A DNA stretch of 52,637 nt from Mesaphorura yosii (taxonomy: Eukaryota > Arthropoda > Collembola > Poduromorpha > Tullbergiidae), in NCBI GenBank assembly GCA_009869945.1, contig WIXG01000468.1:1-52637 (forward strand), given 5' to 3'. A program made the translations under genes and the position numbers. Shown piece after piece: positions 1 to 45,540 of this stretch. The notes beneath the pieces are model-generated. The model was given only the letters and a program-made list of their open reading frames with translations, ran no database searches and was not told the origin of the DNA. Numbering within the stretch: the first letter of the stretch is position 1; each line of letters begins with the position of its first letter.

Positions 1-435
1 AATGAATATTTTAAGTGCGAAAATCTATTTTATAATTTCTGTATTTTTTAAGTGTTGAACCTATATAAATGATGAAGATATAAAAGGTGTTGGAATGTGT
101 ATTTTTGAAATCCTATGTTCTTTTGATATGATTCCTATAAAAAAGGTGAGGCGAAAAATACACCCCATTACTAATTAATATTAATATTCTGTCTGACAGC
201 CAACAGCCTGCCTTCGGCAATAAATTGCCAATTGCGCTAAACACAATTAAGTGGGTGGCGTAACGAGCTTCAACCGCCACCACCGCACCGAGATGAAATT
301 GCTATTAACGTTCTATTGATTTTATGAGTATCCAGCATGAGCATTCAAGCAGTGTGAATTTGCATTGGGAATCGTGACGGTGACAGACAAGCCACAGCCA
401 CAGCCACAAGGAAAATAGAAAGCATTACGTCGAGA
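1..435. other. AT-rich 5' flank of the hydroxyisourate hydrolase gene
   Basis: I see no coding sequence here. A TATATAAA-like run lies near position 61, too far from the start codon at 436 to be assigned as its promoter. A CCACAG-type short repeat (ccacagccacagccacaag) lies shortly before the start codon and is probably 5' UTR. Confidence 0.4.
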
Positions 436-910
436 ATGTTTCGAATCGTGCCGAGCCTGCTTCTGGCGTTCGCGTTTGCATTATTTGCTGTACTCGCCCA
501 GGTTAAAATTTAAATACACAATTAAATATCTCGCGACCTTACCGAAGACCGAACTTGCTTTTCAGGCAACTCGACCGCTTTCGGTGCACGTGCTGGACAC
601 GACGAGCGGTGGAAACGGGCCTGGGATCGAGTGCAAGGGCTACTTTCAAGGCGAGGACGGTGAATTTAGGCTTGTCGGGAGCTCCGTGACCGACGCCGGC
701 GGGAGAGTGCGTGCACTTGTCCCAGCGAAGGACTACGAGCCAGGCACGTACCGCATCTGGCTGAATACGAAGGAGTACTTTGCCGCAAAGAACATGACTA
801 CGTTCTGGCCCGCGATCGAAATCACCTTCCGCGTTCGGGATACGGGTCGAGACCACCACATTCCGGTCGCGCTGAGCCCGTTTGGGTTCCAAACGTATCG
901 CGGAGCCTAA
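436..910 (+). CDS. secreted 5-hydroxyisourate hydrolase (transthyretin-fold)
   Basis: Two exons, 436-501 and 566-910, joined in phase 0 across a 64-bp intron, give 136 residues. HIU hydrolase converts the urate-oxidase product 5-hydroxyisourate to OHCU in purine breakdown. The family's catalytic set is present: H30 in VHVLD, R69 in DAGGR, H120 in HHIPV, and a C-terminal YRG(A). Exon 1 encodes MFRIVPSLLLAFAFALFAVL, a convincing signal peptide placed directly before the enzyme domain. Animal HIU hydrolases are usually peroxisomal or cytosolic, so secretion is unusual. The C-terminus is not an SKL-type peroxisomal signal. A diverged paralogue lies at 3521-3976. An AATAAA at 975-980 is a likely poly(A) signal. 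Confidence 0.85.
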
Positions 911-3247: not shown

Positions 3248-3520
3248 TTGAAGGCTGTTATCACTGGACAACGGAGAATAAATTCTAAAATGCCTGAGGT
3301 CGGTTTAATTAATTCACGCCTAATTAAGCTCCGCAATTAGCGGAATTTTCAATCCTTTGAAATGATTCGTACTCACTGGCGTTAATCAAATTAACTTCGC
3401 ACCACTTTCAATTAAAACTCGACAATTGAGCTTTCGGCCCACGAGTTTCTTCGTGTGCGATCTCAATTCTCGGCGCAGCGCAGCAAAGACTCGACTCCGA
3501 CTCGAATCCGGTGTTTGAAA

Positions 3521-3976
3521 ATGGTGTCAACCCTGAAAATGACGCTCTCTTGTGTTCTCCTTGCGGCACTGCTGCCCTGTGGCGACTTTTCGCACCGTGG
3601 GCGGGCGCCGGCGCGGAGTCGCAGCAGCAACACCGGGGCACTTGCCTTCATTCGGGACAACGTGCACGGGACCGGAGCGGGTGGAATTTCATGCACGCTG
3701 TACAAACTCGAGCCCAAGTCTGGCAACGGCAGCTGGACGTTGGTGGGGTCGAGACGGGTGGGCGGAGGAGGTGGTGCTTACTTTCAAATCGGCGATCCGG
3801 TCGGGACGAGCTATAAGTTTGAGCTGGACACTGAGAGCTACTACGCGGGAAAGAATCTGTCCACCTTTTACCCGTACGTTGAGGTCGTGTTTGAGAAGGT
3901 GGACACGGACACGCACCTCGTCCCGATTATTATTAGCCCGTACTTGTATTCGGCCTACAGGGGCCACATTGGGTAA
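3521..3976 (+). CDS. secreted transthyretin-like pseudoenzyme (HIU hydrolase paralogue)
   Basis: A single exon encodes 151 residues. MVSTLKMTLSCVLLAALLPC is a probable signal peptide, followed by a basic linker and a transthyretin/HIUase fold. It aligns throughout with the gene at 436-910: both have GTYxF/I-type and YxAxKNxxTFxP blocks and end in SPxxxxxYRG. The catalytic positions are changed: His to F43 (in LAFIRD), Arg to a glycine run (near G85) and His to L133 (THLVP). It should therefore not hydrolyse hydroxyisourate. A ligand-binding or carrier role, as in vertebrate transthyretin, is an inference. Unlike its neighbour it has no intron between signal peptide and domain, so it may be a retrocopy or may have lost the intron. 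A GGGGGA loop replaces the active-site arginine loop. Confidence 0.75.
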   Translation: MVSTLKMTLSCVLLAALLPCGDFSHRGRAPARSRSSNTGALAFIRDNVHGTGAGGISCTLYKLEPKSGNGSWTLVGSRRVGGGGGAYFQIGDPVGTSYKFELDTESYYAGKNLSTFYPYVEVVFEKVDTDTHLVPIIISPYLYSAYRGHIG

Positions 3977-4081: not shown

Positions 4082-7000
4082 TCAGAGATTAGTGATCGTC
4101 TTGAGCAGAAGTTCCAATTGCGAGCTTAGTACCTTCAATTCGGACCTGGGATCTTTGATCATCTTCCTTGTGCTGGCAATTATACCTTCAAAATGCTCAA
4201 TTTGGGCCTTGCCGCCTCCGTCTTCTTCGCCACCGTCGCCGTCGTTGTCTGGCTTGTGCCCAAGCCGTCGTGCCTCCACAGCTGCTTCCAAATGCACGAG
4301 ATAGTCTTGCAATTCATTTTTCGTGTTTTGAGTCTGAACGTGCTCAATTTCCAATGGCTTCCCGCCTTTTAGGTGCAGGAATCCAGTCACCGCCTGCTGA
4401 CAAGCTGCGAAGGAGTGTGAGTCTGGGGCGCCCAAGTTGAGTTTGTCCGTCCGCTCCAGTTCGCATTCACGACCGCCTTGAGTCAGTCTGACGCCCAAAA
4501 TTCCCTTTGAATCCAGTTCAAATTCGCCAGTCACCGGAATCGAGGGTGGCAGCGGCAATTTGGCGGTGTAGCAGCCTAAGCACATGGCCAGGCCAAGCTG
4601 GTCCTTCAACCTGGAGTCGTTGATCTGAAACTGTAGAGAACCCGCCTTGTACGCAAAGTTGAGTGGTTTCTGTACGGAGAGCGGTAAAGGCGAGTTGTGT
4701 TTAAAGAGTACGAGAGTCTCCACTCCTTCAGACGCAGACGCAGGCCTGACAAGCCTGAGCTGAATCTCTCCAGGGATGCATTCTCGAAGGAGGCACGACC
4801 AAAGCTTGTTGCTGCCACTGCTGCTGAGCTGCCCGTGCCCGCAGTATAAAGACGCCAGCTCGTGGGCGCCCTGCATGAGCACCTCGTCCGAGGGCGTCTC
4901 GCCCAAGTGGTACTGTTTGCGGCCGAACCCACCGCCCAGGAGAAGCTTCGAGCCCGCCCTCTTCGAGTCCACGTCGGAGGCGACGAGGACCCGAGAAATG
5001 TCGCCGTGCGACTCGATGCACGCCTGCTTCATCAGATCGCGAACGCACTTTTCGTCGCTGGAGCTTACATCGACGGGCACCAGCCCTTGCGTGAGGGCGA
5101 ATGCGAACGCTGAAGATGCTGACTGGTGGGCCTCGCATCCGGTGCGGGCGCCGGAGATCGCTTCCATAACCACGGAAGCCTTGCTGGGCGATGCAGGTCC
5201 AGGGGAAAGGCGGTAAATTGCAAATTCGTCGGCGCTGCCGCCGACAGCATCAGCGCCAAAGTACGAAACCAGCAGCGTTTCCTTCTCCGGCTGTGCATGA
5301 CGATGGCGATGGTGGGACAGAAATGCCTCGTGAAAGTAGTGGAATGCGGCTGCGGTGAGTTGGCTGACCAGCCGCAAGTGCGTGAAGCCAGCAAGCAGCG
5401 CCGAGTCACTGATGGCTCCGCACTGTACACTGGAACTCATCGCGGGGATGACGACGAGGAGGTCGGTAATCGGACTCGCGTCTGCCCGCCCTTCGGCTTC
5501 GGCGTCTCCTTCGGCCTGCTGCTTGCACTTGGCAAGAAAAAGAGCGAGGATTTCTTCGTACCGCATTCGCACAAATTCGTCGCCCTTCACACGAACGGGA
5601 AACCTCGCCCTTCCTGCGTGAACTTGCTGGAGGCTGACTGCACGTTCTTCGAGTACGCGTGCCGCGTCGCCAATCACGCACTCGCCGTCCGGTGCGAAGG
5701 CGAGGTAGGCTGCCAATCTTTCGGGGCGGCGTGGCTCTTGGAATCTGGAGACGGTCGTATACTGAATTGTGCGGCCCCGGCCAATGTGGACAACAAGCAG
5801 CTGCGGCTGCGGCTCCGGCTCCGCTGACGCGGTGGATTTGCCGGAGAAGACGTGCGGGGAATTTGTGGGTGGTGGTGGCGAAGGAGGAGTTGGAGGGGTT
5901 TTGGCTTGTGGATGCGGGTCTTTCGACTTGCTGCCGCTGACCTTGAGGGACTTGAGTCTAGCTGCAGCCTGAGCAGCAGAAGCAGCAGAAGCAGCACTTT
6001 GAATTGGCTTGCTTGACTCGTGCGCGAAGGAGAAAATCCAACCTTTGTCTGTAGCCGACTGCTCGCTGACGGATGAAGGCCGGGACGGCGGTGGCGTTTT
6101 CGGTAACGGAGGCGGTTTTTCTTCTGCCTCTGCGTCTTCTTCTGCTGCCAGAAGTGCTCGCATCTTCTGAATCCCTTCGTCCATATCCCGCTGTATTTCC
6201 TGCAGGGTGGTGTTCACCCTGTCTTTCTGGCTGGTGTGGGGGATCTCGGCCAGTAATTTGTGGCAGCCGTCACGAAACTCTGCGTTCGTTACCTGCAGGC
6301 GGTCCAAAGCGGCTTTGTCTGGTTGCGCCCGCATTTTTGCTTGGATTTGATTGAGTTGTGTCGAGTATCGGGAAAATAACTCGTCAACCATCGCTCTCTC
6401 CGTCGCGTCGCGTTGACGCTGAAGTCGGTCGAGCTCGCGGTCGCGATCAAGGCGGGCCTGCTCTGCTTTTTCAACTTTGGCGAGGGCAGTGAGCTGGCTT
6501 TCGCGACACCGATCAGCCTCCTGCCGCAGCCGGTCGATGTATGGCTGAAGGAAGGATGGGTCCCTGTGACTGTCGTTGGTTTCGACGCTCTTCCGGAACT
6601 CCTCCGTGACTAACTGCAGAATGCGGTCGACCTCTTTCTCAAGAGCGTACGAACTCAGAAGCGAATCTGTACAGATTTGAAGATCAATCGCCAAGAGCCT
6701 GTCCGAAAGTTCCACAATTGCGTTGGCCAGCGAGTTGTCTGTCTGACGCCTGAGAGTTTTCAATCGCTCGGCAGCCTCAGCGGTTTCCTTCTGTTTCTGC
6801 CTTGTCTCCGTCTCGTGCTGCTGCTTTTGTTCCTGTGCCTGAGCCCGGAGAACAGACGCCGAGCGGAATCCACATTCCAGTTTGTCCCTCTCCGCCTTGC
6901 GCAACGCCAGCAGCCGAACGTGGAGCTCTGTGAACACCTCCGTATTCAGGTCAAAGTCGAAGCTGCTACTGTTTTTGCTTTGTAGACTCGCTCTCTTCTC

Positions 7001-8199
7001 CCGTAAAAGAGCAGAGGCTATTTTTTTTGCTTCCTGTGCCGCTTTGTCGAATTCATCCAAAGAGAGCTGGCCGAACTCGTCGGACGTCGAGGTCGCCTGT
7101 GTCTGCGTGTGCGTTTGCTGTTCATCCGCCCAGCGGACGAGGTGTGCTGTGAACGCAGAGGTCGCTGCATTCAGATACTCTTCTTCTTCAGGGCTTATGA
7201 CAGCATTGTTGTTGTTCCAATCTGAGTCTGCCCGCAATCCTAAATTGTCTTCGTGCATGGCAGCCTCTTTCGCATTCCCATTCCCCGATGTCGGCGTCGA
7301 CTGCTTCGCATGCGCCTCTTCCCGCAGCTTATCGTTCACTTTCCTCTTGTATTCAAAGTACCAGTTTTCAATTTCCTTCTCCAACAGCTCCTGATAGCAG
7401 CGAAAAACCCGGTAGTGTGTTCGGTGGTCGAAATCGTGGCTCGCGTACTCGTCGCATGCATCCTTCTTCAGCTTGATGTGCAGGGCGTACAGGGACCAGG
7501 GTTGGAGGAACGTTTGCCCGGTGTCGTTGACCCCGGCCCGGAAATTGTTGCGGTACGACGATAAGAGTTTTTGGTACAATTTTCTCGCCCTCTCCCTATT
7601 TGCTGCTACGACTTCTCGCGGGTGTTGGGCGTACTCGTCTTCATCTTTCTCTGATAAAAGGCAGTGGTTTTTGAATTTTGGACGAGCTGGGCCACGGCCA
7701 GTTTCGGGGTTCAGCGGAGTCCTGGCTCGCTCGAGAAGAATTTTTTCTACGGAGTAACCAAATTATGTGTACAAGTTTCCGGGCCGGAGAATTCAGTCCA
7801 GACGTGACTTACCCATGAGTGTGTTGAGTCCAATCATTTCCAGAACTTTGAGCAGGTCGGCTCCCTGCGTTCCCCGCGCCTCCCAAAGCTCGAGTGATCG
7901 TAGCACGATTTCGGCATAGTTTGGGTCCCTGTCATCCAGTCTCCGCTTTAGCGCGTGGGCATCCAGGGGCAGGTCTACGATGCGGTCGATCACACGGGAC
8001 CACTTTTCAAGGGCGACCGCGTCTTGAATCACGAGATCCCGGATGGCCATCACCTCTGCTCGGGTTACCGCCACGGTGGTAGTGGCGGTGGGAAGGACAG
8101 GGGCAGTGTCCATCAGGGCCGATGTACCTACAGACCCAGAAGTAATATTCTTAGACAGGAAGCATGCTACATTTAATTGACTAATAATTCACTTGCCAT
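4082..8199 (-). CDS. gene A: Death domain - coiled coil - HSP70-like pseudo-ATPase fusion
   Basis: Exons 8199-8193, 8127-7813 and 7746-4082 give 1328 residues with matching phases. The 7-nt first exon (MA, then AS|TSALM) is tentative; the ATG at 8113 is the fallback. Residues about 15-110 fit a Death domain: a W in ALEKWSRVIDRI, then AEIVLRSLELWEARG and LLKVLEMIGLNTLMG, completed across the intron by EKIL. Residues 164-650 are helical/coiled coil and 650-755 are Pro/Ser-rich. An HSP70 nucleotide-binding fold starts near 757, where the phosphate loop DLGTT is replaced by HIGRGRT. A beta substrate-binding-like part and a charged helical tail follow. It should not hydrolyse ATP. Death domains recruit partners in NF-kB and apoptosis signalling. 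There is no G domain here or in the 600 bp upstream, unlike genes B and C. Confidence 0.75.
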
Positions 8200-8826
8200 T
8201 GTTCTGATGGTATTCAGCCATGGGCCTGCTACTGCCTGGTATTGGCTTCCGTACTCGCAGGTGCTGTCAGCTGCACACGAAATGAGCACGAATTTGCGCC
8301 CGGCTCATCTGAGGCTCCACCAGAACGCAGCGGAGCCCGACGACGGCACTTGAATCGTTATTCGTGTGTTGATTAAAAAAGTGTAAAAGATAAGCTCACG
8401 CAACAAAGTAAGGCATAGATAGAATACAGAAGAGCTTTTCTGATTGTGCTGCCAGCTGGTCTGGTCTTCACGTACGCGATGGGCGATGAGCTTGTTAATC
8501 GCGACCCCGGGAATTTGAATTATGTTGCATGCATGCCCTGTCAGAGCTCAATCGATCATGCCGCAATACATTTTCAAGCAGTCGAGTCCGAGTGCTGATA
8601 AGATTCACTGCCTTCAGACAGATTAACAGGCTTCTGGTGAAGACTTTTATTCACACTTCAAAATTATATAAATTCACAAATCTCTCGAAAATAAAAAGGC
8701 TTTAAATGCTAAAAGCTCCCGGTTTGTTTTAAATCAACAGGCATTCGTCAATCGTCGGGCAAGGTCCGTGCATTAGAATCAAGTATCACGTCTCATGCGA
8801 TGTGTCAACGTCGACGGTGAGTTGGA
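8200..8826. other. intergenic between fusion genes A and B
   Basis: About 630 bp of mostly AT-rich sequence. It should hold the promoter of gene A and the 3' UTR of gene B. I found no G-domain exon, no other coding exon and no clear heat-shock element. Confidence 0.4.
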
Positions 8827-11800
8827 CTACTTGGCTGCCAGTTTATCTCGAAGTAAAATGATGTCCCCCCTCGGCAGTCTTCCTTTCTCTTCTTTGACAT
8901 TGATCATAATGTCATTCGAGCCACCGGTGCTGTCCAGCTTTGCAGTGCAGTGCAGAATCCCCTCTCCGTTCATCTCCACCGTCACTTCCAACGTCTCTTT
9001 GCCCTTCGGGCCGGGCGGCACGTCCAGAAGCTCGAATGAGCCCAAGAAGTGATTTTTCTTGGCCACCGGATCCTCCCCCTCAAATATTCGAATGGAGACG
9101 GTTGTTTGGTTATCGTTTACTGTGGCGTAGCCCTTCCTTGTCAATTTGCAGGGGACTTTCTCGTTCTTGGCCACCACGACAGACATGCTTCCGTCGACCA
9201 GCTCGATACCGACCGACAGCGGATTGACGTCCTTGAATTTCATATCGATCAGGCTCTGCTCGGCCGCTCCGTTCAGTTTGGCTGCCAGAATCGCAGCGCC
9301 TCGCGCCACCGCCTCGTCCGCGTTCAGCGTCTGATTGAGTGGTCGCCCGGAGAAGAAGTCCGACAGCAGCTTTCGAATTCTGGGAATCCGCGTTGATCCG
9401 CCGACAAGCACAATTTCGTGAATGTCATCCGCCTTCAGCTTTTCCGGCTTTGCGTCCTTCAGCGTCTTCTCCACAATTTCGATTGTTTGCTCGAATTTGG
9501 CTCGATTAATAAACTCAAAGTCGGTTCGTGTCATCTTCACATTCAGATCGTGCCCGTAAATTTCGTCAACGACGATTGTGGTTTGGTCGGCTTCGGACAA
9601 GTCTCTTTTGCGCTCCTCGCACTCGTTTCGCAGACGGCGGAGATGCCTCGCGGCTGCGACCTGCTCGACCTTGCTGGGGGAGCACCGGCGCTGGGCGAGA
9701 TCGACACCAGTCTTGGCCTTGAACTGTTCGATGCAAAACTCGACCATCGCGCCGTCGAAATCCTCGCCGCCGAGGTGCGTATCGCCGCCGACTCCCAAAA
9801 CTTCAAGGTTGTCCTGCCGAATCTCCAAGATCGAGACGTCAAACGTCCCGCCGCCGAGGTCGTACACCAAAATCTTCTCTTTCTTGTTGCTCGCGCCTCG
9901 GTGATGAAGAAAGTACGCCATCGCGGCAGCCGTCGGTTCGTTGATGATCCGCAACACGTCGAGCCCCGCGATTTCGCCAGCGTCCCTCGTCGCCTGCCGC
10001 TGTCCGTCAGTGAAGTACGCGGGCACGGTGATGACGACCTTCTCGATGCTCTTCACGTTCAGGTAATTCTGAGCCATCGTTCGCAGGTGCTTGAGCACTT
10101 TGGCCGAGATGACTTCCGGGTCCGTCGGGTGGCCTCGGCACACGACGCTGGGTTTTCCGGTCCCGGGTTTCTCGACGACTTTGAATGGCCAGAGTTTCAT
10201 GTCGGCTTGCACGACAGGGTCCTTGAAGTCACGTCCAATCAGCCGCTTGGCGTCGAAGATTGTGTCCACGGGGTTCTCGTGAGCCTGGTTCTTGGCCGAC
10301 TTGCCCACCAACTCCGTTCCCTCGACGTAGCCCACATAGCTCGGTACGGTGGTTCCACTGAGTCCACTCGGGACGATCTGCACTTGTCCGTTGTGGTAGA
10401 CGGCCACGCACGAATACGTCGTGCCCAGGTCGATCCCGATCGCCATGTCCTTCGTGGGAGTGTTCATCGTGTTTTGGTCGACGAATTGAGAGCATCTCGA
10501 TTCCAAGTCCTCCAACAGCGTCCTGCGGCCAGTCTCCGTTAGCATCGACCCAAACTCCGAGACGACGTGCATCATAATTCGCTCGATCGCCAGGCGAAAC
10601 TGTCGCTGAGGCAAGAAAGGTTTTGTCTCAAAGTGCTTCCTCATTCGCTCCTCGAATGCTTTCGACGCGGCGCCGACTTGACCCTCAATTTGAAGCTTCT
10701 GCCTTTCCAGCTGCATTTCCAAGAGCCCCAGCTGTTTTTCATACGCGATGTTCGCCTCAGCCTCCAGCTGGTCGACGTACGACGCGAGGAATGCCACATC
10801 GGATATGTCGACGCTTTCGTTAAAGTCTTGGATTGCTCTCGCCAGAATCTGGCGGTGGTACTTAGCGAGATCCGATGTGGTGGCCCATTCTTGCAAGCCA
10901 ACCGAATGCAGCCTCTGCTGGTATCGTTCGGAAGCTTTCCTGAGGCTCTCTTTCGTCTCCCGCTTGCGCGCTTTCAGCTGGGCAGCGGCCTTCCTTTGGA
11001 AGTCGGCGTAGGGCTCTCCTGAAATCAAGTCCAAAATTAATTACGCAATTCTGACTGGGGAAATTTGAATTTGGCGCTCTCACCTGCAAGTTTCTGCCTC
11101 AGGTTGGACCGGATTTCAGGACCGTCCTCGCCGCCTTCGGTCTCCGCCAGAATTTCCTTCACAGTCTCCGCATGAAAGTCGTCCAGTGCCTCGGGAGTCG
11201 GTAGCTGAGAAGACTGGAGTCTCCTGTTCATGAGGTCTCTGTACTTGGCCGTCAGCGTCTCCATTTTCTGCTGCCTTCCTTCCTGCTGCTGTGTAAGCTT
11301 CTTCAGCTCTTCGCGGTGCAGCTCGTCGATGGCATCGTTGAGCTCGGTGAAGAGCGTAGTAACCACGGCGGCCAGCGAGTCGCCGTCGTCGTCTTCGTCG
11401 TCGGCTAGCTGCATTGTCTTCTCCTTCAGCACAGCCTTGGCCTGCTGCTTCGCCTCGCTCGCCGCGTGCTCGTACTTTGTTGTCGTCGCCCCTGCCGCCC
11501 CGTTTCCCAGTTCCTGTCTCCAGTCCTTCAAGTAAGACTTGTATGCTTTCAGAGCCGGCTGCAGCCACTCCTGCCTCTTTTCCTTCAGTTGATTTTCCTT
11601 CGCCTGAGCCTGGCTTTCCTTCGCTCGCGCTCCGCTGCGCTCGGAAGCAGTCGGAATCAGAGAATGGACCGTTTTTTCTACTCTGACCAAGCTTCTACGC
11701 CGGGCGGAAACCTGGTACGACGACGCCAAATCGTCTCCCGAACCTTCGTCTTCATCTTCGTGGGCCGAGGCCGCCGTAGCGGTGGCGGCAGCTGCTCTAC

Positions 11801-13511
11801 CTTGAAGCAGATCTTCCATCACTTCCATGTGAGCCGGGACGCGCTGGAAGGGGACAGTCGCAGTCGCATCCTTTCCGCGGCGTAGATTCCTGCCCCACCC
11901 GCCTTTTCCCCGCTCGGCCGCTGCCGCCTGTTCTTCTGCGTACGTCTCTCCGAAGGCCTCTGACAAATTCTGCGAGTAAATCGCGTACAGGTCTTTCTCA
12001 TGCCCATCCGCGCCTGCGCCTGCTTCGACCATCAACATAAACTTGTTTCGTGTTCTCAAAACGAGCTGGGCGTTCATCGCTCGTTGCTGACCCGGCTCGA
12101 CGTTGCTAAACATGCTCCGTACTTCTCGGCGGTAGATTTCGATCGCTCGAGACACGGCGTTCTCCCACTTTCCCAGACAAGCAGCGCGGGCCTCGTCGTT
12201 GAGCTTCCTGAATCGCACGTGCACTTGCTCGAGTTGAGCTTCCAGCGTTTGCTGGTACAGGCGTGAAACGGAGGCGTCGTCAGCCTGCAGATTGCTGCGC
12301 GCGTACTTCTCCAGTGCGGTGCCCCTCAACTCGCTGTGAAGCGCGTCGAAGGAGGCGGGCGTAAGGAATTTGTTGGGCGGGGTTTCCAGTGCCCGGGACT
12401 GCAGCTGAGCCGTGTAATCGTCGACGAGTGTCTGCGTGAGGGTCTTCAGCCTTGTCTCGGTTGTGACTGTGGCTGTGGCCCTCCGCCTTGGAATTGGAGC
12501 AGAGAGGTCGTTGTTGTTGAGCCTCGCCCTCGCCGCTGGTTGCTCGAAACCGAAGGAGGCTTCAAATAGCGCGATGCAATCTGCGCCAGTCCTTCGAGCG
12601 GCAGCTCCCGAACCACGGCATTGAATGCTGAGCAGGAACGATTCAAGCGCGGTGGTAAATTTAGTGCTCAGGCTCGTCAGGCTTCCGTTGAAATCATGCT
12701 GCTTCGAGGTAGTAGCCGAAGGTCCGGGCGACGGGAGCAGAAAACATTCGAGGAGACCCACGTTGGCGTCGATTGTTTGTCTCGCGTCTCTGCTGGCGTC
12801 CGAGTGGTGTTCCTGAATCTGCAGCCTCCTCTCCTTGTACAGGCGGCCCCCATCTTGGCCGTGCGGGAAACGGTCTGTCTGCGACCAGTCTCGAACCACG
12901 ACGTAAATGTGGGAGCAGGGGCTTCTCGCCTCCGCAGCAGCGGCGATGGCGTCGGCGAGCCCCAGCAGCTTATCCTCGTGGAGCTCAAAGGCCGACGAGA
13001 AGACGAGCGTTGTCGAGAGCCGAAGGCAGAGGCTCAGTATCTTGCTGGACTGGGCGGCGCTGCTGAATTCGTCCAGGACGCCCTGCGTGTCGACCAAGTA
13101 CACTGCCACCACGTCCCTGACGCCGCCCGATGCGGGGGCGGGAACGAGAATGGGCCTGTTCGTTACCCAGATCCCAGTCGTTCTCCGCTCGTCGCCCGAG
13201 CCCCAGGCCGACCCTATCAACGGGTCCGTGGGTCGGTCCCAACCGAGCATGTCGTCCTCCTCGCCAGCTTCGAGTGACGTCAAATAGCGAAGAATAAAGT
13301 TAAGAAGGAAGGAGCGCCCTTGCCGTGCCGCACCGCAGACGGAAATCACCGCCACGTTCTTGTCCCGTGATTCCTCGAAGATGGAGCCAAGCGCTTCGTG
13401 ATTAAGCTCAAACTCGGGCCCCGGGCGCGTGCCGGGGCCGCCACCTGCCTTCGGGCGAAAGGTCACAATTTGCCGAAACTGCACGGACGAGCTGATATTC
13501 AAGTCGTCCAT
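8827..13511 (-). CDS. gene B: atlastin-like G domain - helical - lidless HSP70 fusion
   Basis: Exons 13511-11084 and 11018-8827 join (phase 1, 65-bp intron) into 1539 residues. Residues 50-290 match the atlastin/GBP GTPase: G1 GAARQGRS (60-67), switch TTG (111-113), G3 DTQG (141-144), VVVRDW (R207-D208), then GxDGG and FLLPxPG. The P-loop lysine is arginine (R66), so GTP hydrolysis is doubtful. Residues 340-990 are helical. From about 1000 comes a canonical HSP70: IDLGTTYSC, FDAKRLIGR, INEPTAAAMAY, DLGGGTFD, GGSTRIP, then a complete beta substrate-binding domain. The protein stops just after KGRLPRGDI, so the alpha-helical lid and any EEVD tail are missing. It lies head-to-tail between genes C and A. 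A gtaagt near 13573 suggests a 5' UTR intron. Confidence 0.85.
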
Positions 13512-13887
13512 TTTCTTGTCAAGTTGCCAAATCTATTGGCCTCACGAAGCACTGCGAATAAAAGGCGTAAACTTACCTCCAGCACCGCCCCATGTCAATC
13601 GTGCGTTGAAACAAAAGCTTCGAATTAAATTCACATAAAGCTTAATCAGAATGACAGGCGCAAGCACATTTATCAAAAGCTTATCGCATCTCGTAAAATA
13701 ATTGCACGCTCACTTTGATGGTGTGATTGCAATAAAATGTGATGACTTAATTCGCAAGTCGCCACGTCAACCAATATTCAATATTTATTAGGATTCAATC
13801 AAAGGAATGCATTTGCAGAATCTGCTGCCTTATCTCACAGGACAAATGAAGCTCATGTCTCTTTCGCAATCTCAATTTGCTAATTCG
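13512..13887. other. intergenic between fusion genes B and C
   Basis: This short AT-rich gap must contain gene B's promoter and gene C's 3' UTR. On the minus strand, a donor-like GAG|gtaagt near 13573-13578 points to a short 5' UTR intron in gene B. I looked for tandem nGAAn heat-shock elements and saw only partial matches. Confidence 0.35.
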
Positions 13888-16800
13888 CTAATTCTCACCC
13901 AACCCCGCAATCAGCTTTTGCAACGCCAGCTTCTGTGATACGATCGAATCCAAATCGATGTATTCGTCCTGAAGTGCACTCGTCGTCGAGGCCAGCTCGG
14001 CCTGAATGATTTGGGCTCGCTGTGACGTCCCGGCTTCCACGTCCACGTTCCCAAGCGCTCTTTGCTTAAGCTGACTCATGCACTCCTGCAATTCTTCCTT
14101 TGCCAGCCGCCTCGCCCGTTCTTCAGGGCCCTTCAGGACATCTGCAATATACTTCCTGTACTTTCCGACCTCTGCCTTGTCCAAATTGAGCTTGTCGGTC
14201 CGGTAGACATTCAGCGGGTAGATCTTTTTTCCGCATGTGCGTGTGAGTGGGCTTTGGCTTTGCTGGATCAGCTGAGCCCCACATTTCAGAGTGCCGATCT
14301 CACTCGCGTCCACCAAACATCGTACAAAGAAGGTAGAGTCCGAGTCTGTTGGTGGTGGTTTCGGAAACTGCAGGTTGATGGAGTGCGTACCCAGTGTTGT
14401 CCCGAGTTCCTGGCTGAAGAGCCCGACTGCCATGCTTCGGTCGTCGTACGTAGTCAGCTGCAGGTCAAGTTTAGCCCGGGCCGGGAGCCTGGCGTTTCTC
14501 TGCAACAGCGCTGCGTAGTTGTTTGTGAATCCGCTCGGGAGTCGAAGTGCAACGGGCAGACCGACGATTTCGGAACACAAAGCGTGCAATTTTACGTCAC
14601 CGCTTGCCCTCAGTTGATTTACGATCCCTACGGCGCCTTGCAGGGCCGATTCGCTGGTGTCATATCGCGTGAATTCGCATCTGTGCCTCTTCCTAGTATG
14701 GGCCAAATCCGGGTCCGCTGCCAACTGCCAAACATGTCGGTGGTCGTCTCCGGCCATCACCAGTGTTGCGCCTTCGAGCATCACCGAAATCCCGGCGCCT
14801 TTTGCCACCTCGCTAACGTACATCTCGCAGTCAGTGGCGGGTCTCGAGCCCCAATAGCTCCTAATCGTGTACTTTGCCATGAAGGGAAGAAACAGGCTAC
14901 CGGACAGAGCCTTCATCTCGACCGCAGGCTGCTGCTTCTTGGGCGTGGTCGACAGTTCGTAAAGGCCCAACTCCTTGTCGCCGTTGCCCGCAGCGTACAG
15001 TATCAACACGAGTGCGGATGCGGCGGCGGCAGGCGAGTGACCTCTCAGCGAGTGCTTCTCGGTCAAATAATCAAAGGCGACCGCGCTCGTCTCGGAGAGC
15101 AGACTGATTTTCTTGAACCCGGCTACGTTCGCTGCGTCGTGGATGGCTTCGCGCTCCACGCTGGAGCTAGTGGCTCGAATTACGATCAGGCACGTGTCGA
15201 AGGGCTGCTGCCTGGCCTCCCGCTCAACGTGCTCCTTGCACTTGGCAAAGAAAAGGCCCATCAGCAGCTCGTACCGGAACTCTTTAAAGTCATGACCCAT
15301 GCCCATAAGAAAAGGGGTGCTGCCCGCCTGAATTTGGTTCAGATAAATGCAGCCAGGTGTGTTCTTCGCAGTGTCGCCAATGACAAACTCCCCGTCGGTG
15401 AAAGCGATGTACGCTGGAATGGCGTAAATGTTGGAGCGCACTGGGCGACTGCAAACGAGGGCGAGTCGAACGGCTGAGCCTCGGGCGAGATGGAGCACCA
15501 AAGTGGCGTTGTCGTTGACGACACCAACTGCAGCTGAGTCGCTGGGTTTTTGGGCAGGCGGCGTCGGCGCGGTGGGCTTAGCGAATGGCCGTTTGGGTTG
15601 CTTCTGGCTCGGACCTGCGTTCTCCTCGACATGAACTGACTTCGAGTTCGGACGGCTGCTTTGATTACGACCCTCCTCTTCTAACTTCTGCTTCTCCCTC
15701 ATTGCTTCGACACCCTCGTCCTTCAACTTGTGCTTTTGTGGCAGGAGATTTATTGCTGCCCGAATTCGGGCGGTCACCTCAACGCTGTAGTACTCCACCA
15801 TCATGGCTTTCAGCTCCGCCTTCACGCTTGTATCCTCTTCCCGGTACTGCTTAATCTCCCCGAGGATCTTCATGCAGTCCGCCACCAGCAGGACGTTTGC
15901 TTCGCTCACCCGAAATTCGTCGGAAGCCCTCTGCTCGCCTCCGCCGAACAACTCCGTCAGCTCGGTCTTGTAAAAGCCAAACACATTCTGTACTGCAATT
16001 TCGTTGATGCTCTGCTCGTACGTGCGAATCTGTGCGTTGCGGAATTCGATGCCCGTCTGAACTGCCGCCCACCACAATTCCAACAGCTTGGCGTGCTCTT
16101 TGTGTCGTGCCTCGAATCTCTGCGATGCAAACCGCTTGCCTCGCGCGAGCAGCCGGTCGAGTTCGGCGGCGTCAGGAAAATAGATTTCCGAGTCAAACTC
16201 GGTGTCAATCAGATTCCGACCTTTGTCCAGGGCTTCAGTGATGTATAGCACCTGCGTCAGCCAAACATCGACGAGCTGGCCGATGTACTGGCCGGCGTAT
16301 TTCTTCTTCGTACGTGCATCGCCATCGTCGCCGCCGCCTTCAAAGTGTCTGCATATAATCAGCTCGCCGACGAGTTGCGCTGCAGCCACGTGAGTCATGC
16401 TGGAAGCCATAAAGTTTGGTAGGTACTTTTCATTCAGAAGACGCTCAAACTCGGGCATGCACCTATTTTCAAGAAAGCGATCGATGTCCGGCCGATTTTG
16501 AAATTCTGGCAAGTCTGGCTGGGTGGTCGATCTCGCTGCAACTGTGACTTCATCCGGATGGTTCTCTTGTGTGTCCTCCAGGCCCCGCTCCGGCAGACTT
16601 TTAATGATCACTTCTTCCTCGGACTTGTACGTGGCAGCAGCAATTGGAGCTTCCAAGCAGGCCTCTTGTGTTTTGGGCGATCGTCGAGGTCGTGGCACAG
16701 GCTGCTCCGGCGCCTGTGCCTGTGCCGGCGTTGGTGCCAATTCATGACGCCCTTGGTTGTCCAAAGGTTTTGGGCTCGGCTCATTTGGCGTTGCCGTCGA

Positions 16801-18097
16801 AGTGGCATTTATCGGGGCAGTAGCAGAAGTTGGAGCAGATGAAGCCGTTTCTGTAGCAGGTTCAGATCCTTGGTCTTGCTTGTCATCGCCCACGTCCACT
16901 TTTTGTGTCAATCGAGTCAATTCTTGCCAAGCGGTGGTGGCTGTGATGGCTATATTAATCTTGTTAAGGGTATCACAAATCCGCTGACAAACCTCAGAAA
17001 AGGACTGCCCAGGCTTCGCGAGTGATTCGCCCACATTCACCATGCGCGTCAGCGCCAAGTGCAGCTCCACTTTGTCCATGTGCTCCAACGCCCCGAGAAA
17101 CTCACCCTTCGTCTTGGATTTGAGGGTCGGAAGTTCGTGGCGGGCGAAAGCAATTTTCCGAGCAAGGAAGAACGGCTCGAAGTTGTCGGTTGTGTTGGCG
17201 GCTGCAACTTCGGTCGCAACTGCAGCGTGCTTCTGGAAATGCAGATGCCGATTCGTCATGCAAACCACGTCTGGCCTTCTCGAGTGGGGGTCTGCTCCAG
17301 AAATTGCCTTGTCCAGGAGCGCAAGCAGTAGCTGTGAGTTGTAGAGCTCCTGAAGGAGGATTCGATTAGGATGTTAGAGGTTTCTTAGGCCAGGACAATC
17401 CTAAGCTGTATATATATGAGAAAGGATTGATTTTCCTGATTTTCAGCTCCAGCGTACTTACTCGCTGCTGGTCGGTCCCATCAGCGCCAACGTCAATGAA
17501 AATGGCGACCGTAGCCACAAGCATGCAACTGGCCGCCAGGGCCGCGTAGTAATTTTGAAATTCGGAGTCACGTGTCGGGTCGCGAATGCCCGTGCCCGCA
17601 TCAATGTCGAGAAGAATGATCTTTACACACTTCTCTACTTGACATCCCTCCACGTCCACGCCAACGCCTGCAGACTCGCTGAACAGGCGCACGACGGGCA
17701 TATTCCGCAACAGACGAATCCCGCGAGGTGGAGTCTGATCGACGTCTTCTTCGTCTTCCCCCATCGCCTCCGCTTCGTTCGGCCTCGGGTTCCAGCTGAA
17801 TCCTGGCAAGGGTGCCTTCTGATCCACGACGTCCATCCAATTCGGCTCCGGCCCACCGCCAGAAGCCAAGTACCTCGCGATCCAATTGGCTAGGAACGAC
17901 TTGCCTGAGCACGGCGGTCCCACCACAGAAATGACATGAAACTGAGTGCAATTTCTATCTGTTTCCGGCAACGGCAACGGTACCCCTTGTCCACTTCCAC
18001 CGGCCTCCAATAAAACGGAAAATAGTTCCGAGGCGGGCGTGAGCTGACCATTCTTCATGGAAATTACGAGCGGAGTCTCCTTTTCTTGTTCACACAT
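13888..18097 (-). CDS. gene C: degenerate atlastin/GBP-like G domain - helical - HSP70 pseudo-ATPase fusion
   Basis: Exons 18097-17462 and 17349-13888 join in phase 0 across a 112-bp intron, giving 1365 residues. The N-terminus has an intact P-loop, GPPCSGKS at 60-67, the same position as in gene B. The other G motifs are lost: the TTG switch reads PPRGI, G3 reads LLDIDAG, and the VVRDW motif reads VVCMTN. A low-complexity Pro/Ala/Thr linker (about 370-430) and a helical block (about 500-770) follow. The HSP70-like part begins near residue 828, where DLGTT is replaced by HLARGS. Later blocks still follow the NBD order (AYIAFTDGEFVIGD, SSVEREAIHDAANVAGF, LLSETSAVAFDYL). A beta domain and a helical C-terminus complete it. 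Nucleotide binding by the G domain is possible; hydrolysis at either site is unlikely. It is closest to gene A in its HSP70 part and to gene B in its N-terminus. Confidence 0.75.
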
Positions 18098-18665
18098 CCT
18101 GCTGAACTAAAGCGAATTAAGAACAAGTGTGGTAAACCCGGACTGAATACTTGACACTTGACGTACCCTGAATTTATTGTTGTTAGAAGTTGAATAAATT
18201 ACAGATTTGTGCACTTTCCTGGGCTTTGTTGCCTATTTCCAGTTGATTTTGCATGGAATGTTCATGCCGACGTATTTTGCATGTTGGCGAATGAAATATT
18301 TGAGGCAAAGTCTGAATCTTCTACACTGTAAAATCATTCGTGATTCGTGGCGTTGCTAATAAATACTGATATTATCAAGCTCGTTCTAATCTCTGTGATG
18401 AAATTTGTTGATCCACTCAAGACTCGTGAACCGAGCGATGCAATGCTCTTATCAGGAGTTGACGGTTCGATGCTCTTGAAATCAGTCGGTCGACTCTAAG
18501 CAGGAGCAGGCGCAGCTTAATTGACTAAAATATCTTTAATTGTGGCCTAAGTCGGTTCGAATTGATTGAGCATTTTATTCCAGCATGATGAGGTTCAGTG
18601 TAATTAAGTATTAATTAGCTTTGGATATTTGAATGCATTTTGGATTAAAGATTGAAGCGGTTGTC
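18098..18665. other. intergenic, AT-rich
   Basis: The 5' flank of gene C and 3' flank of the frame-broken gene. I see no coding sequence, no RNA gene and no repeat. Confidence 0.4.
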
Positions 18666-24196: not shown

Positions 24197-25684
24197 TTAG
24201 GGAAATGATCTGCGATCGCCTCCAGGCCCAGGATCCGGATCGTAAGGCGTCACTACGGGAGAAAGATTACAGAAAGGCATGAGACAATTAACTTTACAGT
24301 TAGCAAGTTTAAATTTCTTACCTTCCTCCATCTCCTCCAAGTCCAGATTTTCAAACGGATCCTCCTCCTCCGCCCGAGTCTGTTCTTGCTCCTCGTCATC
24401 CTGATGCTCTTGCTCTTCCCGGCGCTTACCATGCTTGTACGGCACTGGAGAAGGCGAAGGGGACTTCGAACAAGACCGTGACCGTGACTGCGAGCGTGAC
24501 ACCCGCGCCCTGGCGCGGGCGAGGGCCCGCGCCCCATCTGGCTCACTCACCCTCCTCCGCACTTTTATCAGCAAGTCCGGTCGTCCACGCTTGAAGTACT
24601 TGTGCACGAACCGACACTCGGCGTCCAGGCCAGGATATTTGCGAAATCCATCTAAAACAAGTCAGCATTTTGTATTTATTTTCCAGTTTTGCAATTTTGG
24701 CCAAGCTGACCAGAATTTGCTTTTCCCAAACTTAAACTTACACCAATTCAGCTGCCTCACAAAACTCGCGATGTTATTGTGCTTGAAATTGACCGGAAGC
24801 AAATCTTGTGCTAGAATGAATTGATCGTGAATCAGGAAACCACTGCCGTCTGAGCCCCATTCAATGATCTGATTCGTAGCCGGTTCGTCAACCATCCTCC
24901 ACAATTTTCGGACGAAGGGAGTCACACTGGGAGGTTGTGTTGGAGGACCACGCTTGGCTCTGCTTCGCGATCGCTCGCGCCAAGCCTGGCGTTGGTGGTG
25001 CTGGAGCTGCGATGACTCGAGGCTGGAACCGGAGCTGGTGCTGCCTCGCCTTCGCTTCACTGGCTTCACCCGAGAACTGGATCGGCGGGTATTCGCTGCC
25101 ACTGGTACCAGGCTGTGGCCATGATCTTCAGCCGCAGCTGCGCGGACGTCGAAATCTGGATCCTTCTCCCGGTCGTCTTCGCCTTCCTCGGGTTCGGAGT
25201 TACCGAGTGCTTCTTCTGTTTCAAGGCTTGGAGTTGGATTAGAGACTTGTGCTGGTCTTTCTGATTTAGCCGTTTGTGCACTCTTCTGTAGTGGCAGCGC
25301 CAGGCTCCTCTTCATTGCCGTAATTTCGTCGCTTCCAAGGTCATGATGGATGTGTTTGTAAATCTGGGATTCTTTATTGATCAGCTCCACACCTACGAGA
25401 ACAGAGAAAATGTTTGACTTTCCGTTTAATATTTTGGTTTACTTCAGCTAATTAATATACCTACCGAACTTATCCTTGATCCAGTCGAGCACCAGACCAA
25501 TTTCGACGAGGAGGAACTTAAAGTCGTGACCAAGGCGATACAGCTCTTCGTCGGTTGTTTCAATGCCCTCTTCTAGAACCGACACTCGGCTCTCCAGGTC
25601 GACGTCAACGGGGCCGTGACCGTCTCCGTGAAGCGACGAATTGAGCACGTCTGTTATTCTTTTTCTGCCGTCGATGTCAGTCAT
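24197..25684 (-). CDS. divergent heat-shock-factor-type transcription factor
   Basis: Four exons (25684-25465, 25392-24742, 24651-24322, 24252-24197) give 418 residues. An HSF DNA-binding domain spans about 232-340: TPFVRKLWRMVDEP, IIEWGSDGSGFLIHD, NNIASFVRQLNW|YGFRKYPG, FVHKYFKRGRPDLL, ending KVRRRV. The intron splits the recognition-helix region at LNW|Y. Classical HSF1-type proteins have the DBD at the N-terminus followed by an HR-A/B leucine-zipper trimerisation region. Here about 230 residues precede it, including a helical stretch (ESRVSVLEEGIETTDEELYR) and a Ser/Arg-rich basic part. An RS-like and acidic tail follows, with no heptad array that I can see. It may act like the HSF5/HSFY-type relatives rather than as the general stress regulator. 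Binding sites and targets are unknown. Confidence 0.8.
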
Positions 25685-34167: not shown

Positions 34168-35367
34168 TTATAGTTTAAACGTAACAAGAAGATTTATTAC
34201 ATTATCAAGTACGTTACTCATGAGAGTGATGTACGTCTCCTTTGTAATGGGAAATAGTTTCGCTGCTGTGAACTCTATTCGCCGACAAGTCGGAAACCTC
34301 AACCGCTCGTACTTCCCTAGACTCAGTTCATTCCTGAGGTACGAGGCTCCAAACCCTCCTGAGGCGTCTGTGAGTTCAGCCGTGAGTCTAATGAGGACCG
34401 CAGAGTTGATGCACGTGAGGCAGGTGATGAGCACGGTGCCAAAGAGTAATAACGGTTGGAGTTGTCTTCCGTACCCAATAATTGCAAATAGGGTTGAAGT
34501 GAGGATCACCACCGAAAATATTAGAGTGAGTAGGATCGGAACTTCAGCAAAGTCCATGGTCAGTGTGTGTAGGATTCTGTAGGCATTGTACGATGTGATC
34601 AGTGGTTGTCTCAATTCATGCGTTGTCACAAAGTTGCTGTCTGATTTCCAACTCATTCGAGTCAACATTCGATACTGAGAACTGCAGTAAAGCAGGGAGA
34701 AGGAAATAGCATGAACTACGGCCACCCACAATGCGAAAATCATGAAGGAAAGTACACAACCCAAAAGAGATGTCATGGCCAGCCCATCAGGATGAAGAAA
34801 GCGAAAAGTATGCACCTCGAAGTGAATTAGAATAATCCAGCCTGGGACGTTAAGGACCAAGCTGCCGACTGCCAGTCTAGTCATCATTCTCAGGTAGAAA
34901 TCAATTCCGCTTCCATTCTTGTCCTGGGATTTTAAAGTCCTCGCATGTTGTTTGTGAGACAGTAAGAAGAAAGTATTTTGAAAGGTCGCAATCGTGGACG
35001 GACAGACCGCGATGAGTACTTGGAATGGGAGAGCGAACCCAATTCCTGAGCAGATCATGTAAAATTGTATACTCTCGTACATTTGAAACTCAACCCCAAC
35101 GAACTGATCGTAAAATCCCCCAACATAAAGGAAAGTTGCCTCCAGGGAAATCATGAGCACATTCATAATGAGACAGGCCAACTGGTGGCTGGTCGATCCA
35201 AATTCTAATACGTCTCTTTTTTTCTCGTTGTCCAGCCTTTGAGGATCTGTACTTGCAAGATGACGAAGGCGTCGGTCCACGTCCAGATTGTAGTGGTAGG
35301 GCACGAGGCCGAGGTGATACCCAAAATTAGTGAGCCAGAGCAATTTCATTGACTCTTCGGACACCAT
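34168..35367 (-). CDS. seven-helix chemoreceptor, gustatory-receptor-like
   Basis: A single exon encodes 399 residues from the ATG at 35367. The frame is open further upstream (to 35400), but without a better ATG. About seven hydrophobic segments span the protein, for example LIMNVLMISLEATFLYVGGF, SLLGCVLSFMIFALWVAVV, VPILLTLIFSVVILTSTLFA and LLLFGTVLITCLTCINSAVL. The C-terminal end KETYITLMSNVLDNVINLL resembles the TYhhhhhQF signature of the insect gustatory receptor superfamily. It has a Ser/Asn instead of Gln-Phe, as in divergent non-insect members. Such receptors are ligand-gated cation channels of chemosensory neurons. Codon use is clearly more AT-rich than that of neighbouring genes, as is common for fast-evolving receptors. 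An extra 5' exon cannot be excluded. Confidence 0.7.
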   Translation of the reverse strand: MVSEESMKLLWLTNFGYHLGLVPYHYNLDVDRRLRHLASTDPQRLDNEKKRDVLEFGSTSHQLACLIMNVLMISLEATFLYVGGFYDQFVGVEFQMYESIQFYMICSGIGFALPFQVLIAVCPSTIATFQNTFFLLSHKQHARTLKSQDKNGSGIDFYLRMMTRLAVGSLVLNVPGWIILIHFEVHTFRFLHPDGLAMTSLLGCVLSFMIFALWVAVVHAISFSLLYCSSQYRMLTRMSWKSDSNFVTTHELRQPLITSYNAYRILHTLTMDFAEVPILLTLIFSVVILTSTLFAIIGYGRQLQPLLLFGTVLITCLTCINSAVLIRLTAELTDASGGFGASYLRNELSLGKYERLRFPTCRRIEFTAAKLFPITKETYITLMSNVLDNVINLLVTFKL

Positions 35368-35762
35368 AACTATATTGGTGATGGAATTTGACAGAAACAA
35401 TGAGAAAAGAACGAAGCAGTGTTACAAACTCAAGTACAAACAAGCTGAGAGAACAGTTTGCCATGAAATGAGTCAAAATTTGAAGAACTAGTCGAGTTAC
35501 GTGACGTGGACGTCAGCTTGAACAAGTAAAATAGAATTTTCAAAGGAAGTCCACTACAAGCTTTTGGTGGACTGCTTGTAAATTGCGACTCATATTCGGT
35601 CGGAAATGAAGCGTGAAACTGGGAACGACTTCTGGAAAGCTATACAACAAGTAACTTATCAATTATTATAAAACGATGAGTGAAGTTACTCGGTGGAATT
35701 GGAACTTAGGACTTGACTGGGCGGGCTCGGAGGCTTGTTTTGAAAAAAAAGACAGTTTAATT
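35368..35762. other. intergenic
   Basis: Upstream region of the chemoreceptor gene. No coding sequence seen. Confidence 0.35.
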
Positions 35763-43550: not shown

Positions 43551-45540
43551 TTACATCCACCGTTCCCAGCGCATGTCAGCATTATTTGCATCACATCCGT
43601 TGTAGGTCGCGATTCCATCCCCAGCCGTATGTGACGCTGGCTTCGCGCATCTCCCAGTGATCTTGTGCACCAGCAGAAACTGTCCGTTCCCCAGGCCGGC
43701 ATCCCTCAACTCCCAGCCATGCCAGCCATTTGTGTGGTCACCACATCGGTCAGTCCATATCCAATCCCCGTTTGACCCGCCAGTCCACGCGCACGCATCA
43801 CCTGACTCCGTGGCCCCATTGTAAGAGTACGGTGTCTCCAGCGTCGTGCCTTGACTTGGGTTCGTATCACGGACAACGATGCGGTCCAGGGCGGTGGCAG
43901 CAGCCGAGTTCGAGGGACAGTCAAACATCTGGAGGGGTGTCATGTACTCACGTGGGTCAGAGACACGCATGCAGAGGTTAGCTCCTACGTTCTTGAAGAG
44001 GTAGCCCACTGGGCGGCAGTTGCCCCTGAAACATCTTCCTCCTCCCGCGCAAATGGTGTTGTCGACTGGAGCGATTTGATAGATCCACCAGCCACCACCG
44101 TCCGCCATCGGGACCACACAACGCATACTTGTGCAGACAGCTGTGTCTTTCTCTTCAATGAAAGCAGTAGGTCCAAGATGAAGCTTACACTGCGCGTCCA
44201 TTGTCGGTGCACTTGGAGATGCGTAGCCAGGATCGATAATTGCACTCCCATCCAGCCGCTGGAGGCAAGATGCTCCGGACGATCGTACAAAATTGTTGAT
44301 GGTACGATCTGAGCATGAGGAAAAGTACCACCGGAGTGTATCGGTGCCTCCGCTCATTATGTAACCCCGGTCACTGCAACCGCCTGGGTAATTTGAATCG
44401 TCGTCATGTGGTGCGCCGAGATTGTGCCCCAATTCATGGGCGCCGACCGTCAGACTGCCCCAGTCGCCTCCGTCGTTCCAGACTGCCGTCCCAAGCGCGC
44501 GACCACCGTTCGTGTCCACCCAGCAAGCAGCATTCATGTACGCCAACCCTCCGCCCCACTCGAGTGCAGTGTTAGTGATCAGTGGAGCCAGATCGAATGC
44601 TGGCCATGAGCCAATTTGGGTGTACACCCAGGTCGAATACCTGTCCAAGATCCGCCCGAATTCAGCACGTCCATCTGATGCACGTGCCTCCTCGATAAAG
44701 GGTTGCCCGCTAAAGTCAGAGATCATCACGACTCCGTTGACGCGAAAGGAGATTGAGTTACTCGGTAGGGTCTTGTAGCGCAGGTTGAGGTCATACATGT
44801 ACACCGTCAAGTAATCAAGGACTCGTTGACGATCATGGCCGAATTTGTCGCCAAACTCTTTGTCGCACACAATTACGAGTTCAACTACCGCCTCGACTCC
44901 AGTGGCGAAAGGCGAGATGGAATCCGTCCCGTCTCCGGTCAGGTTCCGGTCGAGATCAATGAAATCAGGCCGATTGTGATGCGTAGCATGAGAAGCGTGA
45001 GTTTCTGATGCTCGTGAGTGATCCACAGCGATGTGCTCGATGCCATTGTGAGTAATCGCAACTCCATCGACAAGCCCGGTCACACGGAACTGGCCGGAGA
45101 CTGAGTCAGGACGCACGTGGAAGACGGCCTTGGATTCGACGTCGGTGTACAGATTTTGGGCGTGCTCCACTTCTTGTTTCGAAGGTGTCCACCGATCGTA
45201 TTGCTCCTCGCCGGTGACGGAGTCCACTCCTTTAACCGTGAGGATCTGAATAAAAAAATACATATTTCTTTCACACCTTTCCAGAAATCAAATTAAAAAT
45301 TGCTGAACACACTTGGAAGCTCTCGCTGAGTAGAGCGGTCGCTCCTGTGCGGGCAGCTGATGTCAGGTGGAGGTCATGCTTGAGGCTGGCATCGGGGGCA
45401 GTTAAGGCCACTCGGTATCCGCCTGGGGTGGATGAAGAAGGCTCGATGTGGACGTGAATTCTGTCGCCAGACGGGCCAAGGCTCTGAGCCGGAGAAAGGG
45501 CGACTACAAGAAATGCCAGAAGGGGCAAGAACTCTGTCAT
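43551..45540 (-). CDS. secreted ADAMTS-like (M12B) metalloprotease with beta-trefoil-like C-terminus
   Basis: Exons 45540-45313 and 45245-43551 (67-bp intron) give 640 residues. A signal peptide (FLPLLAFLVVALSPAQS) and a propeptide of about 170 residues come first. The M12B catalytic domain spans about 195-410. Its zinc site is HELGHNLGAPHD at 346-357, and YIMSGG is the Met-turn. Next is an ADAMTS-type cysteine-rich part: DAQCKLHLGPTAF, AVCTSMRCV, then CAGGGRCFRGNC. Instead of thrombospondin repeats, the last 200 residues look like a ricin-type beta-trefoil: ANLCMRVSDPREYMTPLQMF, then FLLVHKITGRCAKPAS, and finally NADMRWERWM. That would give an extracellular protease with a carbohydrate-binding tail. 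I see no disintegrin loop and no membrane anchor. A TATA box lies about 90 bp upstream. Confidence 0.85.

Follow-up and report, generated by a model that had tools for sequence, protein, structure and literature searches.

Three tandem paralogues in a springtail are predicted to join an HSP70 or pseudo-HSP70 module to an atlastin-type or Death-like head

In a contig of the springtail Mesaphorura yosii (WIXG01000468.1), a first-pass annotation had described three large minus-strand genes in a head-to-tail array, each ending in an HSP70-like module behind a G domain or a Death domain. The locus raises the question of whether such fusions are real, how they are related to each other, and what an HSP70 might do at the end of such proteins. 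The window, i.e., the whole stretch of 52,637 nucleotides that was analyzed, is eukaryotic, and an animal-type HID1, a gene with an HSF DNA-binding domain, an M1 peptidase and a TTL gene were identified in it by Pfam. A tRNA search of the window found none.

Minus-strand ORFs of 1226, 737, 831, 1161 and 246 codons were present within 4082-18106. Joining them across in-frame GT-AG introns predicted three two-exon genes on the minus strand, C, B and A, with the following features:

18097-13888, minus strand: gene C, two exons, intron of 112 nt, 1365 aa
17462..18097, minus strand: exon 1 of gene C, with the start codon and the P-loop half of an eroded atlastin/GBP-type G domain, from ORF and splice
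17350..17461, minus strand: predicted intron of gene C, 112 nt, GT-AG, phase 0
13888..17349, minus strand: exon 2 of gene C, with the remainder of the head, the middle region and a pseudo-HSP70 (about 15300-13888)
13784..13789, minus strand: AATAAA of gene C, ∼100 nt past its stop codon
13511-8827, minus strand: gene B, two exons, intron of 65 nt, 1539 aa
11084..13511, minus strand: exon 1 of gene B, with the atlastin-type G domain and three-helix bundle (13415-12198) and the start of the stalk
11019..11083, minus strand: predicted intron of gene B, 65 nt; homologue alignments pass straight through it
8827..11018, minus strand: exon 2 of gene B, with the final stalk units and a catalytically intact, lidless HSP70 (10443-8887)
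8646..8651, minus strand: AATAAA of gene B, ∼175 nt past its stop codon
8113-4082, minus strand: gene A, two exons, intron of 66 nt, 1321 aa
7813..8113, minus strand: exon 1 of gene A, a likely Death domain, the end of its last helix being supplied by exon 2
7747..7812, minus strand: predicted intron of gene A, 66 nt, GT-AG
4082..7746, minus strand: exon 2 of gene A, with the stalk, a Pro-rich linker and a pseudo-HSP70 (about 5860-4082)
about 7570-7349, and a weak one at 6667-6518, minus strand: stalk units of gene A, by the stalk profile

Around the array, a HIUase/transthyretin-family gene is located just downstream of A (3512-3976, plus strand; Pfam 1.6e-14), and the ORF at 419-907 (plus strand) was recognized by eye as a second HIUase/transthyretin-like gene. 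The HSF-type DNA-binding gene (24665-25438, minus strand; 1.9e-17) lies ∼6.5 kb upstream of C, and a gene that is PIAS-like by eye lies between them. Further along the window, 34168-35421 (minus strand) encodes a membrane protein of 417 aa that is arthropod chemoreceptor-like by eye (Pfam DUF7807 at 0.0032, below the cut-off), and 43554-45287 (minus strand) encodes a reprolysin-type metalloprotease with an ADAMTS-like Cys-rich piece, followed by what appears by eye to be a ricin-B type lectin tail.

Because an AATAAA follows both C and B, the three were treated as separate genes and one long gene was ruled out; 3' of gene A, no AATAAA was found within 1.6 kb. Only ∼530 nt separate the signal of B from the ATG of A, which is too short for a missing G domain, and in A the Death-like exon occupies the place of the G domain. 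Third-position GC is 0.61 to 0.67 for A and C, compared to 0.70 to 0.72 for B. No three-box heat-shock element with at most one mismatch was found in the spacers of the array or close upstream of any of its genes; heat-shock elements numbered 22, against 22 expected.

The splice joins of A, B and C are predicted ones, and the homologue alignment of B passes unbroken over its junction. The fusions of head to stalk in B and of stalk to HSP70 in A and B are read within single ORFs, and an artefact of the assembly or of the gene models was ruled out on this ground. It is also countered by the recurrence of the domain order in proteins of Orchesella and Medioppia and in the ENA protein P0142 (contig of 5.6 kb), and by the ENA protein P0170 (contig of 4.8 kb), in which stalk and HSP70 are joined without a Pfam G domain. 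Three unrelated fusions were likewise ruled out, since pairwise matches in the stalk, the G domain and the HSP70 link A, B and C; judged by these matches, the genes are diverged paralogues, copies of one gene.

The HSP70 module of B was matched by Pfam at 2.8e-165 over profile positions 1-501 of 599, and both the nucleotide-binding and the beta substrate-binding domains are present. The array of three fusion genes described by the first-pass annotation was confirmed. Eight catalytic positions of the ATP site (D10, T13, K71, E175, D199, T204, D206 and D366 in Hsc70 numbering) are all conserved in B, as they are in 15 of the 19 relatives (see below). In A and C, six or more of them are lost: K71, D199, T204 and D206 are altered in both, and D10 and T13 are changed in C and gapped in A. 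This agrees with one intact HSP70 and two pseudo-HSP70s, as had been proposed. The C-terminal helical lid is absent from B, where the alignment stops by Hsc70 position 540, and 14 of the 19 relatives also have no alignment past this position, a count that includes possibly incomplete gene models and P0024, which is cut where its second HSP70 starts.

For A and C, the Pfam HSP70 scores were 25 and 22 bits, and the HSP70 profile match reached 95 and 93%, respectively, over ∼125 columns, compared to 0.3% for reversed controls. A structure prediction, which had been suggested as a check along with the profile searches, gave a model of A that matches HSP70s, so that an HSP70 fold is predicted for A in a low-confidence model (pLDDT 59.8, with HSP70 rows in its alignment). 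The two pseudo-HSP70s are 35% identical over 272 aa. In A (4082-5860) and C (13888-15300), unlike in B, the substrate-binding domain is followed by a helical tail, with RTDKLNL as a common motif.

The N-terminal head had been described as atlastin/GBP-like. Atlastin is a dynamin superfamily GTPase of the endoplasmic reticulum and belongs to a membrane-remodelling/fusion family. Pfam found GBP in B at 3.5e-30, and when compared with solved structures, residues 33-438 of B matched atlastin-3 at 4.5e-40 across the G domain and the three-helix bundle, whereas the best non-atlastin match, 9jju (‘LOC432253 protein’), reached 2e-25. For the ENA relative P0142, atlastin-3 scored 236.8 bits, 9jju 109.8 and rows named GBP at most 37.2. 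Because both B and P0142 score best against atlastin-3, the head of B and its first stalk unit are assigned an atlastin origin by similarity. The atlastin half of the earlier description therefore stands for B, which is nearer to atlastins than to GBPs and falls outside the GBPs proper; in C, the domain is eroded.

No transmembrane hairpin was found in B (maximum 19-residue hydropathy, KD19, of 1.32), and by hydropathy neither A nor B has a membrane anchor; a hydrophobic stretch is present in C (KD19 of 2.22). The P-loop of B is GAARQGRS, and since its lysine is replaced by arginine, the GTPase of B may be weak or dead. C keeps its P-loop (GPPCSGKS at 17897-17920), and its G domain is 40% identical to that of B over 57 aa (1e-5). 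The Pfam GBP matches of C were at 0.09 and 0.19, so that no whole G domain was found above the Pfam cut-off, and ∼50 residues of C matched atlastin-3 at 0.0075. Among the relatives, the P-loop GxxxxGKS is intact in 7 of the 17 surveyed, the headless P0131 and P0170 being left out.

Between head and HSP70, units of the atlastin-type bundle are repeated. A stalk profile seeded from this bundle and iterated identified five units in B (one of them weak, 0.09), two in A (the second weak, 0.006) and none in C, and in 13 of the 16 Orchesella rows it gave seven matches at ∼90 aa spacing, some of them weak. When each of 22 stalks was shuffled five times, the best match was 0.055, compared to 3e-18 for the best real unit. 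Single weak units are uncertain because the profile was iterated, and the even spacing of ∼90 aa is the stronger evidence that the stalks are built of repeats.

For exon 1 of A, the proposed Death domain stood only in part. Pfam Death was matched at E 0.013 and in none of eight shuffles, at 16.1 bits compared to a curated cut-off of 22.6, and the match is lost without the splice that joins exon 1 to exon 2. A phmmer search of the region against the PDB gave no matches, and among the best 50 of 103 Foldseek rows for its model there was no death domain; these were mostly bromodomains, with E of 2.4 or more. Exon 1 of A is therefore called a likely, borderline Death domain. No Death-headed relative was found among the 19 family rows, nine of which, including P0117, were freshly scanned with Pfam and the others covered by precomputed domains.

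The fusion architecture is not private to the window. In a first search with the HSP70 of B, restricted to proteins of ∼850-2700 aa, GBP and HSP70 occurred together in one protein (P0024 of Orchesella cincta) among the best 120 of 4927 matches. A search with P0024 yielded 56 matches, 13 of which carry both Pfam domains, and the same domain order was thus recovered in other species: O. cincta and O. dallaii account for 11, the oribatid mite Medioppia subpectinata for one, and the last is an unnamed ENA protein. In six more rows, stalk and HSP70 are preceded by a head that is degenerate, ankyrin-like, cut or missing. Together, these 19 of the 56 matches (16 Orchesella, one Medioppia, two ENA) are taken as the family, and the remaining 37 are other HSP70-containing proteins, some serving as tree comparison only. 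B aligns with P0134 and P0135 at 39-40% identity across ∼800 aa spanning stalk and HSP70, and these orthologues with a degenerate P-loop are retained in both Orchesella species. The ankyrin-like N-terminus was found in P0136 (E 0.067). The partial O. cincta protein P0117 has a VWA domain between two HSP70 pieces; its contig has the same size (56,727) as that of P0024, and either a domain was swapped in this member as well or its gene model is a join. Six of the seven O. dallaii members form three pairs on equal-sized contigs and therefore probably lie in clusters.

In a tree of 37 rows with 12 of the 19 relatives, the 13 fusion HSP70s formed one clade (SH-aLRT 97) and B adjoined P0142 (SH-aLRT 87); in a tree of 47 rows with all 19 relatives and two more HSP70 copies, the support for the fusion clade was weaker (SH-aLRT 67). 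Both trees were built by quick searches, with SH-aLRT as the only measure of support, and ‘canonical’ in them denotes rows that are not known fusions of this kind. The HSP70 clade is consistent with a single fusion event, without proving it. In the 37-row tree, the Entrophospora row P0173 sat on a long branch close to the fusion clade, unlike the other fungal rows, a placement from which we draw no conclusion. The occurrence in springtails and a mite may reflect an old origin with losses, transfer or contamination. In a search with residues 1-1020 of B, none of the 7989 candidates scored reached an E of 0.001 or better; as it needs shared 5-residue words and draws on limited candidates, this null is not evidence of absence.

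What might such proteins do? The reading that we tentatively prefer, at somewhat less than an even chance, is that A, B and C work together inside the cell to sense foreign or damaged protein, and that in them a stalk-HSP70 body is combined with a swappable head. The lidless, ATP-driven HSP70 of B would sample clients, either misfolded or bound by an invader. The common stalk, and the G domain where GTP binding persists, would drive the assembly of copies, B with A and perhaps C, in which the catalytically dead copies would bind or scaffold and not refold. The clustered Death domains of A could then recruit a Death-fold adaptor or kinase, and the client load would be converted to a defence or stress signal. 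In favour of this are the paralogy of the three genes, the atlastin head and bundle in B and P0142 with repeated units in B and A, the catalytic positions kept in B and most relatives, the architecture shared by 13 of the 56 matches and the single HSP70 clade. Also in favour are the swapped or dead heads within the family (the P-loop survey, ankyrin-like P0136, VWA in P0117 and Death in A), the completion of the Death match by the splice, the anchorless A and B, the probable clustering of O. dallaii members, and the parallels in zebrafish and oysters (see below). It is held below an even chance because the Death match is borderline, the P-loop of B is altered, C has no stalk units, which leaves nothing to support its assembling with A and B, and there is no clear heat-shock element. 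The hydrophobic stretch of C, the negative PDB and Foldseek results for the Death region and the lack of a Death head among the 19 family rows also count against it. The immune or stress role that the first-pass annotation had proposed is in the same way inferred.

The best surviving alternative, although unlikely, is a proteostasis machine without signalling, in which a lidless HSP70 is tethered through the G domain and the long stalk and brought by them to aggregates or membranes, with A and C as pseudo-chaperones of regulatory function and the helical exon of A as no more than an interaction domain. Such a machine would fit the catalytic positions conserved in B and most of the family (15 of 19 relatives), a head from a membrane-remodelling family and the borderline Death call, but no three-box heat-shock element was found in the spacers of the array or close upstream of its genes, A and B have no membrane anchor, and the Death match of A depends on the splice. 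The swapped and dead heads of the family also speak against it, as these are commoner in defence families. Because of the swapped N-termini and dead-enzyme copies, a sensor family is favoured over plain proteostasis.

A variant of the sensor reading, in which HSP70 and pseudo-HSP70 are baits for invader proteins that target chaperones and the folding state of clients is irrelevant, is improbable. Two of the three HSP70 modules are catalytically dead yet encoded in long ORFs, and HSP70 domains occur in oyster defence-type proteins according to the accessible part of PMC8195603, but a bait would have no need of the catalytic residues that B and 15 of 19 relatives keep. About as improbable is neutral drift, with B as the sole working gene and A and C as decaying tandem duplicates that gained or lost exons: lost catalytic residues and HSP70 scores of merely 25 and 22 bits in A and C, and the eroded head and stalk of C, would suit decay, but the ORFs of 1226 and 1161 codons are unbroken, third-position GC in A and C is close to that of B, the reading frame is kept through the splice, which also completes the Death match, A and C still share 35% identity in their pseudo-HSP70s, and orthologues with degenerate P-loops are retained in two species.

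The sensor reading can be carried further, to a proposal that we regard as doubtful: an undescribed class of arthropod immune receptors, in which an ER-fusion GTPase without its anchor, its bundle multiplied to a stalk, and a lidless HSP70 would read protein damage or invaders that target chaperones. The window would then hold a complete set, made up of a live receptor, a dead scaffold and a signalling arm with a Death domain, and would be analogous to a receptor-adaptor gene cluster with a chaperone as the ligand-binding domain. If true, the substrate domain of an HSP70 would be the sensing end of a receptor-like protein, one chain would hold two NTPase engines of unrelated folds, soil arthropods would have turned the membrane-fusion enzyme atlastin into a soluble sensor, and the swap of a single exon could wire a chaperone to Death-fold signalling. 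Tests of expression and knockdown can be carried out, as the databases contain at least 16 members from two Orchesella springtails.

In line with the first-pass annotation, which knew of no such family, no description of an atlastin-HSP70 architecture was found in full-text searches of one library of open-licence papers. The accessible text of the O. dallaii genome paper has no mention of HSP70, heat shock, guanylate, GBP or atlastin, and that of the Holacanthella paper none of HSP70, heat shock, guanylate, dynamin, death domain or atlastin. The F. candida paper, in its accessible part, lists 18 ‘Hsp70/90 co-chaperone’ horizontal-transfer calls from Rhizophagus and is otherwise silent on such terms.

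The closest known proteins are the GBP-HSP70 proteins of O. cincta and O. dallaii and P0161 of Medioppia, which like B run from G domain over stalk to HSP70. They are uncharacterised and annotated merely as heat shock, GBP/RHD3-type or unnamed products, and neither a Death head nor a pseudo-HSP70 like that of A or C was found among the 19 rows. With atlastin, B shares the G domain and the first three-helix bundle, but it differs in the missing transmembrane stretch, the Lys to Arg change in the P-loop, the multiplication of the bundle to a stalk and the C-terminal HSP70. With HSP70/Hsc70, it shares the nucleotide-binding and beta substrate-binding domains and the eight catalytic positions, but its module has no lid and sits C-terminal to an atlastin head and stalk, and in A and C the module is catalytically dead. 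Two defence systems, each known here from part of its source paper, may be parallels by analogy. The TRADD-N expansions of oysters are lineage-specific animal proteins with variable domains, including HSP70, GTPase and Death-like ones; they differ in being molluscan and TRADD-N based, and an atlastin head or stalk is unmentioned in that part of the source (PMC8195603). Zebrafish Gbp4, a defence protein that feeds an inflammasome, combines a dynamin-superfamily GTPase with a death-fold domain, a CARD (PMC4932187); in the springtail array, the putative death-fold domain takes the place of the G domain rather than trailing it, and an HSP70 is added.
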